From Bacteriovoracaceae bacterium (lineage in GTDB: Bacteria > Bdellovibrionota > Bacteriovoracia > Bacteriovoracales > Bacteriovoracaceae): a DNA stretch of 64,000 nucleotides. Shown in pieces: positions 34,209 through 37,943 of this stretch. A program made the translations under genes and the position numbers. The DNA lies in contig CANFHC010000004.1 in NCBI GenBank assembly GCA_947446575.1, positions 1-64,000 on the forward strand, in the 5' to 3' direction. Position 1 is the first letter of the stretch, and the number at the start of each line of letters is the position of its first letter. The notes below the pieces were generated by a model, which searched no databases, was not told the origin of the DNA, and was given only the letters and a program-made list of their open reading frames with translations.

Positions 34209-36080
34209 CTACTGGTTGACTAATTTCACTAAGAATTTTGTCTCTTTGCCCACTATAGAGTCAACAGAGATGGTCCCACCATGTAATTCGACGAAATATT
34301 TAACTAGATAGAGGCCCAGACCTGTACCTTTAATGGAATGATTCGCATCATTTTTTATCCGATAAAATTTCTCAAAGATATTCGAGAGTTCTTCTGGTGG
34401 AATACCTGCACCATTATCCTTAATTTCAATATACACCCACTTCTCATCATCCCAAGTTTTAACTTCAACGAGCGAGCCATCTCCAGAATATTTTATCGCG
34501 TTTTCCACGAGATTTGAGATTACCCTAGTTAGCAAAGTTACATCGATTTGGATGGGATATAGCGGAGCTAGTGCTTTTTTAACCTGGACATTTTTTTGCG
34601 AGGAACTAAAAGATAAATCTTTTATCACTGTCTCAATGACGCTGTTAACATCCTTGGAAATTTTATTCAGACCAAAATTACTGGATTCAATTTTAGTTAA
34701 ATCTAGAATACTGGAAATAAATTTATTTAACTCTTTAGTTGAATCAATAATTAATTGTGACTTTTCTCGAATCTCGGGATTAGTATTTTGATGGTAAAGA
34801 TTATCGGCCACTCCTGCAATTTTTGCGACAGGAGTCTTTAGATCATGACTCATTAGCGATAAGAAGTTTTGTTTTAACTTCTCTACTTTTTTGAGTATTT
34901 TAGCTTCTTCTTGAATTGCAAAACGTCGTTGGTATTCACCAATGGCCCTGAACGGAATCCAAATATAATAAACAACGAAAACGGTAACGACTAAATGTGC
35001 GGTATAAAGCCAAAATCCCATTAAAACAAAAAGCAAATACGAAAATACAAGAATAGAAATTAACATTAAGATAGTGATTATTAATCCATCTTTTGGCTTA
35101 AGCCTGGAAATAAGAATAGAGAGAATTATTCCTAAAACAAAAGCCACTACATTAGAAACCATTCTGGGAATCATTTTTATAGTTTTATTCTGGATGAAAG
35201 AATCAATTATATTAGCATGGATAATTAATTTCGGTGCTTTGTACTCTTCTTGATTAAAAGGCGAAAGGTAAAAATTATCTCTTTGTGAAATATAATTAGG
35301 ACCGATGAGAACTATTTTATCTTTAAAAATTTCTGGTGAAAAATTCCCTACAAGCACTCGGTGATAGGGAATTGTTTTATATTTGAATTCACTATATATT
35401 GGAGAACTTGCGTATCTAAACAAAACGAAATTTGCATCTGCTTCATCATTATAGTAAGCACCCAAAACATCTGGAACATTTATAGTGCTCTTCCCCATCA
35501 TCCTTCTGTATTGATTCGCTGTTGATAAATGTAACGATTCTTCACCTGAGACATTAAAAATCGCTCTTCGAACAACATCATCTTTAGCAAAAGTATTATT
35601 GTCGATATTGAGTTGTCCCAAAGAATAATTAAATTCTCGCAAACCTTCGGGGGGTAGTATTTCTCCAATCGTTTCGTCGAGCTCTGTAGCAAAATTAATT
35701 TTTCCACCAGTTGAATCAAACTGCTTTAAACTTTTTTTAAAATCGTTAAAATAAGGCAAGTCATCACTTGATACTTCTGGCATGCGAGAAAAATAATTTA
35801 TTATTTTAGGTTGTGCCTTAAGTAGTTTTTGCAGAAAACGAGAGTGTGTCGCATAGGTATATGGATAAGTGTCACCTAAGTAGTCATCGCTTTCTTCATC
35901 CATAGTCACAATAACAATTTCACGACTTGGCTTAATGCCAAAATCCATACGTATTTTTAAATCATAAAAAATACTTTCTAAAGAAGCTAAAGGGTATTGA
36001 AAAAGGATTGTGACAAAAATCAGCGTAAAAAAAAGCGGATAATAGTCAGATAAATCTATTTTTAATTTTTTTATCTTCAT
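34209..36080 (-). CDS. CHASE2-domain sensor histidine kinase
   Basis: The 623-residue kinase starts with one transmembrane helix (about residues 15-32) and an extracytoplasmic CHASE2 domain with the typical LKIRMDFGIKPSREIVIVTM and KDKIVLIGPNY blocks. About three helices follow (roughly residues 300-375). The kinase core has the H box SHDLKTPVAKI with His412, then N (ISNLVENAIKYS), G1 (DNGAGIPPEEL), F (IFEKFYRI) and G2 (GTGLGLYL) boxes, so all catalytic motifs are intact. The signal is unknown; CHASE2 kinases are usually thought to sense periplasmic conditions. It overlaps the upstream M48-like gene by four bases and precedes the response-regulator gene by 52. Confidence 0.94.
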   Translation of the reverse strand: MKIKKLKIDLSDYYPLFFTLIFVTILFQYPLASLESIFYDLKIRMDFGIKPSREIVIVTMDEESDDYLGDTYPYTYATHSRFLQKLLKAQPKIINYFSRMPEVSSDDLPYFNDFKKSLKQFDSTGGKINFATELDETIGEILPPEGLREFNYSLGQLNIDNNTFAKDDVVRRAIFNVSGEESLHLSTANQYRRMMGKSTINVPDVLGAYYNDEADANFVLFRYASSPIYSEFKYKTIPYHRVLVGNFSPEIFKDKIVLIGPNYISQRDNFYLSPFNQEEYKAPKLIIHANIIDSFIQNKTIKMIPRMVSNVVAFVLGIILSILISRLKPKDGLIITILMLISILVFSYLLFVLMGFWLYTAHLVVTVFVVYYIWIPFRAIGEYQRRFAIQEEAKILKKVEKLKQNFLSLMSHDLKTPVAKIAGVADNLYHQNTNPEIREKSQLIIDSTKELNKFISSILDLTKIESSNFGLNKISKDVNSVIETVIKDLSFSSSQKNVQVKKALAPLYPIQIDVTLLTRVISNLVENAIKYSGDGSLVEVKTWDDEKWVYIEIKDNGAGIPPEELSNIFEKFYRIKNDANHSIKGTGLGLYLVKYFVELHGGTISVDSIVGKETKFLVKLVNQ

Positions 36081-36865
36081 TTCAGTGCTTGGACTCTTGC
36101 TTCTAAACTTACGTAGTCAATCAAGAGATCACTGAGCACATCGTCTGTTTGATTTTTAACATGATTAAGTTCATTTATAAGCAACCCTCCTACGCTGTTT
36201 TCACAACAGGCAGGTAAATGATTTACTTTAAAAAGAGCAGATATATAGTCTTTTCTTAAACCTTCCAGTTTTCCAACTTGTTGATCAAAACGAAAAACAC
36301 TTTCTTCTATTTCATATAATCTGGCCTTTAAGCAATAGGCTGGATAAAGAAAAATATTCAATACTCGTTCAATGTTTTTGTTCTCAAACATTTCCCTAAT
36401 GGCATATACAGGAGAATAAAGGATAAAAAAGATTAAACTCGCCATCGTGCGGTGTTTAGATTCAGTTGATTTAAATTTCAACAAAGAAGCATAAATCAGA
36501 CTGTTGAGCTCATTTCTTGTGAATGTTTTATAAATATTTTTACCAATTACTAGAGCTGGTTTTCCAAAATAAGAATTTGTGTAATAAAGATTGTTCACAA
36601 ATACATTTGACCAATAAACCTTCACTTCAGGAATTTCAAAATGACAGCTAAAATTTTTCACCTGATTAATAAGTATCTCATCATCAGTTACATAACGAGC
36701 CTTAGCAAAAATCAAGATTAGTTTTTCTCCCCATATAGCAAGAAAAATAAAAATGATCGTCGCCACAAGCAAGCCAACTAAAACGCCCCTGTGCAGATCA
36801 AACAATAGCCCTACAAAACCAAAGGTTAAAAAGTATATAAAAAATAATAAAAGCAAATATCTCAA
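36077..36865 (-). CDS. Membrane protein resembling a degenerate M48 (HtpX-like) peptidase
   Basis: The 262-residue protein has two N-terminal membrane helices and then a region that aligns by eye with HtpX: IPEVKVYWSNVFVNNLYY, ALVIGKNIYKTFTRNEL, then a helix where HExxH should be. That position reads ASLLK (126-130), so zinc ligands and the catalytic Glu are all missing. A later hydrophobic stretch (LIFFILYSPVYAI) matches the HtpX layout. If the relationship holds, this is a pseudo-protease that might bind rather than cut membrane proteins. The gene overlaps the CHASE2 kinase start by four bases, so it could be an accessory sensor. Alternatively it is simply an unknown membrane protein. Confidence 0.5.
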   Translation of the reverse strand: MRYLLLLFFIYFLTFGFVGLLFDLHRGVLVGLLVATIIFIFLAIWGEKLILIFAKARYVTDDEILINQVKNFSCHFEIPEVKVYWSNVFVNNLYYTNSYFGKPALVIGKNIYKTFTRNELNSLIYASLLKFKSTESKHRTMASLIFFILYSPVYAIREMFENKNIERVLNIFLYPAYCLKARLYEIEESVFRFDQQVGKLEGLRKDYISALFKVNHLPACCENSVGGLLINELNHVKNQTDDVLSDLLIDYVSLEARVQALK

Positions 36866-36977
36866 ACGATAAATAAAATCTCTCCATGAAGTGACTTGAG
36901 AGTGTCATTATTACACTAGTCTTCTTAAATTATAGACAATAATCCGGACGAGAGCTATAAGGCATAGAGTGCTTTTT

Positions 36978-37102
36978 ACAGATCGAGGGGAAAACAAGGC
37001 CCGCCACAACCCAATGGAATCATTGGACTTTTCACGGCGCGGCTCTCATGTTTCGGGGATCTGTGATATCAATGAGTTGTTTTTATCATTCACGGGGGAT
37101 CT
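36978..37102 (+). ncRNA. Structured leader RNA upstream of the endonuclease IV-like gene
   Basis: Three nested stems can be drawn. P1 pairs ACAGATC (36978-36984) with GATCTGT (37058-37064). P2 pairs GGCCCGCC (36998-37005) with GGCGCGGCT (37036-37044), leaving one bulged C. P3 pairs CCAATG (37011-37016) with CATTGG (37021-37026). The area is visibly G/C-richer than its surroundings. GGGGATCT near P1 recurs as GGGGGATCT at the Shine-Dalgarno site (37094-37102), so the P1 5' strand could pair with either copy. That gives a switch-like choice between an exposed and a blocked ribosome site. I match it to no riboswitch class that I know. It may also be an independent small RNA. Confidence 0.5.
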
Positions 37103-37106
37103 CTAT

Positions 37107-37943
37107 ATGAAATTTGAACGTCTATTGTTTGGAACTGCTGGTGTACCTAACTCCACTCCAAAGAAAAATAATCCTATCGAAGGTGTTAAGCAAGTGCACG
37201 CACTTGGTTTAGATTGTATGCAACTTGAATTCGCTCATGGCGTACGTATGAAAGAAGAAGTTTCTTCAGGCCTACGAAAAGTTTCTTATGAACTTGGAGT
37301 TCCTTTAACTTCTCACGGTCCTTACTACATCAACTTGAATGCTCGAGAACAAGATAAAATTGATTCATCTGTTGAGCGCATTATTCAAACTGCAAAAATT
37401 TCTGATCTATGCGGCGCTGAATCGATGACTTTTCACGCAGCTTTCTATATGAAAGATTCTCCTTATGATGTTTTTGATCTTGTTCAAAAATCTCTTAACG
37501 TGATTGAAGAAAGACTTAATCGTCTTGATATTCAAATCGAACTTCGCCCTGAACTTACTGGGAAGACTTCTCAATTCGGTTCATTAGAAGAACTCATTGA
37601 TTTAACAAAATCTGTTTCATCATGTTCACCTTGCATGGACTTCTCACATTTATTCGCTCGCACAAATGAATACAATACATACGAAGAATTCTGTACTGTT
37701 CTTGGAAAACTAAAAGAAGAGTTAGATCCAAACGCTCTTCAAAACATGCACATTCATATTTCTGGAATCAGCTCAAACTCTAAAGGAGATTTAAAACATC
37801 TTAACCTTGAAGACTCTGATTTTAATTGGCGTGAACTTCTTCGTGCATTAAAAACTTTCGATTGCCGCGGTTACGTAATCTGTAACAGCCCAAATCTTGA
37901 AAAAGATGCAAAAATGATGAAGGATTTTTACGCTACTCTGTAA
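37107..37943 (+). CDS. Endonuclease IV-like (Nfo family) TIM-barrel protein
   Basis: Endonuclease IV cleaves DNA at abasic sites in base-excision repair using three zinc ions. The 278-residue protein keeps most metal ligands at nearly the E. coli positions: His70 (SHGPYYINLN), His110 (FHAAF), Glu145 (IELRPEL), Asp178 and His181 (CMDFSHLFAR), and His in MHIHISG. The last ligand, normally Glu in a LET or CESP context, is Asn260 (VICNSP). Activity may therefore be altered, or it may belong to a sister clade. The ATG at 37107 with GGGGGA upstream is used; an apparent extension to 36969 would translate the structured leader and has no ribosome site. Confidence 0.75.
   Translation: MKFERLLFGTAGVPNSTPKKNNPIEGVKQVHALGLDCMQLEFAHGVRMKEEVSSGLRKVSYELGVPLTSHGPYYINLNAREQDKIDSSVERIIQTAKISDLCGAESMTFHAAFYMKDSPYDVFDLVQKSLNVIEERLNRLDIQIELRPELTGKTSQFGSLEELIDLTKSVSSCSPCMDFSHLFARTNEYNTYEEFCTVLGKLKEELDPNALQNMHIHISGISSNSKGDLKHLNLEDSDFNWRELLRALKTFDCRGYVICNSPNLEKDAKMMKDFYATL

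Follow-up and report, generated by a model that had tools for sequence, protein, structure and literature searches.

Orphan riboswitch candidates and lineage-restricted cis-regulatory RNA motifs are known from G+C-rich intergenic regions (PMC2864571, PMC8723152). The leader described here precedes the gene for a TIM-barrel protein in a 64,000-nucleotide stretch of DNA from a Bacteriovoracaceae bacterium (contig CANFHC010000004.1 of assembly GCA_947446575.1; the whole stretch is hereafter called the window). It resembles the orphan candidates in its position, its conserved unpaired blocks and its compensated helices, as well as in its association with a single gene in a restricted lineage and in forming a G+C-rich island in an A+T-rich genome. 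It differs from them in that this Bacteriovoracaceae leader has no Rfam model, its helix registers drift, and no expression platform was recognised in it. As in leaders of the ribosomal-protein type, there is one site per genome before one gene, with sequence blocks held by short helices, although the gene presumably regulated here does not encode a ribosomal protein. With translational riboswitches that sequester the Shine-Dalgarno (SD) sequence, the leader shares a position upstream of a strong SD, but not a conserved pairing between element and SD. Since lineage-restricted candidate leader RNAs are already a well-known kind, the leader is best filed under that kind, as a new, lineage-restricted candidate cis-regulatory RNA that is absent from Rfam.

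In the window, a promoter is predicted on the forward strand at 36933-36961 (TAGACA-17-TATAAG), and transcription would start near 36968. It recurs before the gene in most genera of the family, as TTATAGACA...CTATAA with unchanged spacing; a strict consensus promoter scan of the window gave 36933-36961 no score. Between this conserved promoter and the ATG, the transcript would carry an untranslated 5' leader of some 139 nt (36968-37106, forward strand). An open frame does run from 36969 into the gene in the window (335 codons, and 284 in G015, G009 and G013), and a coding, N-terminal extension through the leader was considered and rejected, since in the closest relatives the frame is interrupted shortly before the gene begins. 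Because the upstream open frame is not kept there, we treat the bases before the ATG as leader.

A sequence-only reading of the window had drawn three stems in this leader, nested in a region richer in G/C than its surroundings, and had noted that GGGGATCT occurs twice. All of these features are present on the forward strand. P1 joins ACAGATC (36978-36984) to GATCTGT (37058-37064) in 7 pairs. P2 joins 36999-37005 to 37036-37043, with 7 pairs and one bulged C by our recount, brought to 8 by a flanking G-U. P3 is the hairpin CCAATG-GAAT-CATTGG at 37011-37026, with 6 pairs (37011-37016/37021-37026). The GGGGATCT repeat lies at 37055-37062 and again at 37095-37102, the latter copy at the SD sequence GGGGGA (37094-37099), and the leader is 48% G+C, compared with 31% upstream of it, 36% within the gene and 35% over the window as a whole. 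Taken alone, the window sequence is nevertheless weak evidence for a special fold or repeat, as a drawn stem and a repeat in any one sequence are. The leader folds with a minimum free energy of -34.1, and its dinucleotide shuffles average -32.6 ± 3.3 (z -0.46), 63 of 200 of them folding equally well; when the 129 bases are shuffled, 13% of the resulting sequences contain an exact 8-mer repeat. No second copy of the leader was found in its own genome. The evidence for a special region comes only from relatives.

When the upstream regions of 117 genomes were compared, a block common to seven genera emerged, consisting of an AA pair, a TTGAATTAAAG-like loop, TTTTCRCGGYGCGNCTNYC and TRTGATATGA. 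In the window, the conserved element spans 76 columns of alignment A1 (37000-37075, forward strand). Column profiles place within it block B (37029-37047, consensus TTTTCRCGGYGCGNCTNYC) and block C (37062-37071, consensus TRTGATATGA, TGTGATATCA in the window). The two blocks keep a fixed spacing: the distance from CACGG to block C is 29 nt in all 30 aligned genomes, and the 30 copies of the element align in MAFFT without any gap (A1). A profile built from sequence alone finds one strong match per genome in 31 genomes of the seven genera (13 genomes in g1, 2 in g3, 5 in g15, 6 in g16, 3 in g35 and one each in g38 and g44), always before the TIM-barrel gene; among them is G016 (L132), which lay outside the training alignment. 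Nothing further of a convincing kind was found among 369 genomes of the phylum, where G125:C70 and G360:C25 gave weak partial matches, and in the viral contigs searched for the element the TIM-barrel protein has no relative. Many genera of the same family carry the gene without the element. The genera that do have it are dispersed over one half of a gene tree of low resolution, with which one origin of the element or several would both be compatible. In L047 (g34) the profile missed a leader that is similar to the element apart from a few bases inserted after the P3 hairpin, before block B. That the leader fits no known class, as the sequence-only reading supposed, is borne out by Rfam 15: no family reached its gathering score in the window except two tRNAs, and at E values up to 10 the window leader and 10 relatives drew only snoRNA, miRNA and sRNA models, all well short of the gathering scores. 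In a limited search of open-access papers, no account of the leader turned up.

The question of whether this conservation belongs to RNA or to DNA was answered differently by different methods. In a fixed-register scan of the aligned relatives nothing covaries, RNAalifold on the fixed-register A1 gives no consensus structure, and, with 53% of P2/P3 cells pairing in fixed register, there is no one consensus secondary structure that keeps most pairs. A pure DNA element was at first favoured from these null scans, a view that was reversed by swap tests, in which the leader halves are exchanged between genomes and the folding energies compared after removal of row and column effects. With the 5' strands out of register, the pairing had escaped the fixed-register methods; exchanging halves between relatives tests pairing even where registers drift. 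By this home-made test, which is not R-scape and draws on related genomes that lack independence, own halves pair better than swapped ones across all genomes (z -6.0, and z -5.2 with P3 kept). For that reason weight falls on the tests confined to genera or made at the genus level, and these gave z -5.5 with permutation within genera only and an exact p of 0.0002 at the genus level (the swap tests exclude L107 and L124, in which the limits of the 5' half could not be set). The controls were flat, with z 0.06 for DNA upstream of the promoter, -0.67 for the divergent gene and 0.06 for the 3' half against the downstream sequence.

The signal can be assigned to particular helices. For P3 by itself, z is -5.0 within genera and the genus-level p is 0.0016, and by column permutation the real P3 region folds better than chimeras of the same columns (z -4.8 overall, -6.1 in g1). 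As the 3' half is lengthened from -10 to +4 of block C, the swap signal grows from z -2.1 to -4.3; base-pair probabilities show an excess at -4 to +3, the columns of the P1 3' strand pairing with their own 5' half, and at -37 to -28, the lower P3 hairpin. When P1 is tested as a duplex only, the signal is lower (z -2.1, p 0.02). Outside the window, the P1 sequence pair recurs only in G011 (L016), there with one A-U replaced by G-U, while G009 (L011) keeps 5 of the pairs; equivalent closing helices in other genera are supported by the swap tests. Support for P2 across genomes, between which its register shifts, is weak (z about -2 for the P2-strand region, genus-level p 0.009). In A1, which is ungapped and was not fitted to structure, P2/P3 covariation is 0.180 against 0.131 ± 0.020, a value reached in 4 of 500 shuffles. 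One more hairpin, lying between the two blocks B and C, was also considered and found unsupported (z -0.5 to -1.3).

By the swap tests, their controls and the A1 covariation, then, pairing is kept through sequence change. The strand was addressed by picking helices with G-U and A-C scored alike: own helices contain 30 G-U to 9 A-C (16 to 1 in P1), swapped ones about 22 to 19 (p 0.002), and this excess implies that the sense-strand RNA has been selected. Together these results support a folded sense-strand RNA in which P1 and P3 are the reliable helices. Of the structured leader proposed from the window alone, P3 and the closing helix at P1 have held up in relatives upstream of the gene and P2 only weakly so.

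Leaders that bind a ligand or a protein typically combine conserved unpaired blocks with specificity for a gene. We think it reasonably probable (about 0.6) that this leader is a cis-regulatory structured RNA, its likeliest mode being that a small molecule or a protein binds the blocks held by P1 and so alters how stable the mRNA is or how it is translated. The conserved promoter would give rise to the leader, the 5' half of which would pair with the 3' half such that the closing helix P1 encloses the P3 hairpin with its weak lower stem P2. P1 would thereby hold the blocks UUUUCRCGGYGCGNCUNYC and URUGAUAUGA, mostly unpaired, at a fixed distance. Blocks B and C may be the surface that recognises this ligand or protein, which, once bound, could alter the stability or translation of the mRNA. 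The conservation of the element, its single copy, gene specificity, compensated pairing and sense-strand bias have been demonstrated computationally; from these we infer that it controls the TIM-barrel gene, most likely through a bound ligand or protein. The element thus marks a very slowly evolving enzyme gene as probably regulated through its transcript, and the ligand or protein, if found, would hint at the role of the enzyme in predatory bacteria. A narrower version, in which the leader is a riboswitch-like class of predatory bacteria with blocks B and C forming a pocket in which a metabolite or metal connected with the TIM-barrel enzyme binds, is speculative and on present evidence unlikely. 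Against the main reading stand the null fixed-register scans, the lack of a recognised expression platform, the many genera that carry the gene but not the element, and the drifting helix registers, which are unusual for a ligand-binding RNA.

The same blocks could in principle be read as DNA, that is, as an operator or second promoter in which a protein binds the leader DNA and the inverted repeats are half-sites. The gapless 29-nt spacing in 30 genomes and a sequence more conserved than its pairing are what such a site would show, and the CRC-NNN-GCG palindrome in block B resembles the promoter-upstream palindromes of genera lacking the element. A DNA site would not, however, explain why block C has a compensated partner in the 5' half whose distance from it varies, nor would it explain the G-U excess, and because the element occurs once per genome there is no regulon for an operator to serve. 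We regard a DNA element as an unlikely explanation, if one that deserves to be kept in mind. That the drifting registers and loose pairing reflect a 5' stem that solely protects the mRNA from degradation, without sensing, is harder to believe; the P1 5' strand does lie close to the inferred 5' end, but protection gives no reason for blocks B and C to be unpaired, strongly conserved and fixed in their spacing.

Two-codon AUG-AUA minigenes are known to cause peptidyl-tRNA drop-off, and block C might accordingly be a start codon with a short ORF, at which ribosome stalling or drop-off controls the gene. In all genomes block C reads ATG or GTG at positions 1-3 and ATA or GTA at positions 4-6, and TGA comes next in nearly all genomes of g3, g15, g35, g38 and g44 and in two of g16. 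Such control is nonetheless very improbable: no SD precedes block C outside part of g1, the frame continues for differing lengths in g1 and g16, and block C also takes part in P1. As an observation in its own right, block C (window 37063-37071 and relatives) has in five genera the form of a toxic two-codon minigene, with a start codon, Ile or Val, and TGA. Least credible is the translational switch of the sequence-only reading, in which the P1 5' strand pairs with either the P1 3' strand or the SD copy of GGGGATCT: the complementarity is there in the window, but the SD copy is found only in that genome, the repeat being absent from 11 of 11 other same-genus genomes compared (where nothing longer than GGGGA, CGGGG, TGGGGA or ATTTTT is common to the P1 3' strand and the SD) and of a kind seen in 13% of shuffles; element-SD pairing is not conserved (z +1.4), and predicted SD pairing differs between genomes, with occlusion running from 0 to complete. 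Since in addition there is no intrinsic terminator in the window leader, or by eye in those of relatives (in the window the only terminator-like site, 37191-37206, is inside the gene), the proposed switch is unsupported; as a conserved mechanism it is largely refuted, and its geometry in the window is probably accidental.

The gene downstream of the putative regulatory RNA (37107-37943, forward strand) encodes an AP_endonuc_2 (PF01261) TIM-barrel protein of 278 aa, a distant endonuclease IV relative. It scores 99.2 bits against the Pfam cut-off of 31.1, and 54.1 against the curated NCBIfam cut-off of 129.65 bits for endonuclease IV (Nfo; TIGR00587), below which it falls; its similarity to solved endonucleases is weak. 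The gene is found in 122 of 129 genomes of the family Bacteriovoracaceae at about 75-100% identity, it is 83-88% identical between genera, and the matched records carry names such as Bacteriovorax, Halobacteriovorax and Bacteriovoracaceae. Judged by ORF size and strand, gene order around the locus looks alike across genera. The divergent neighbour (36077-36865, reverse strand) encodes a protein that resembles HtpX only distantly and scores far under the curated cut-offs, and beyond it lie a CHASE2 histidine kinase and then a sigma-54 response regulator. Between the HtpX-like gene and the promoter is a 7-1-7 palindrome, GTGTCATTATTACAC (36902-36916), which is kept as NNTTATTACAC in most genera and has a form that we take to be the kind bound by Fur/Zur-family repressors. 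Palindromes such as GACGCNNNGCGTC occur upstream of the promoter in g12, g13, g17, g42 and others, which have no leader element; g35 and g44, which both have the element, also show a palindrome at this position.

Other arrangements precede the same gene elsewhere in the family. By eye, g36, g43, g46, g10 and g27 have a small ORF directly before the TIM-barrel gene and no leader element; the cysteine pattern of this ORF (CEC...GxGCxxC) looks like that of BFD-type [2Fe-2S] proteins. In g12 (L023, L024, L032, L035, L045 and others; alignment A3) the gene is preceded by a different structured leader, with a closing helix UUGUCACR/YGUGRCA that contains compensated pairs and a CCUG/CAGG hairpin that adjoins a GGGGG Shine-Dalgarno sequence, as would be expected of SD masking.
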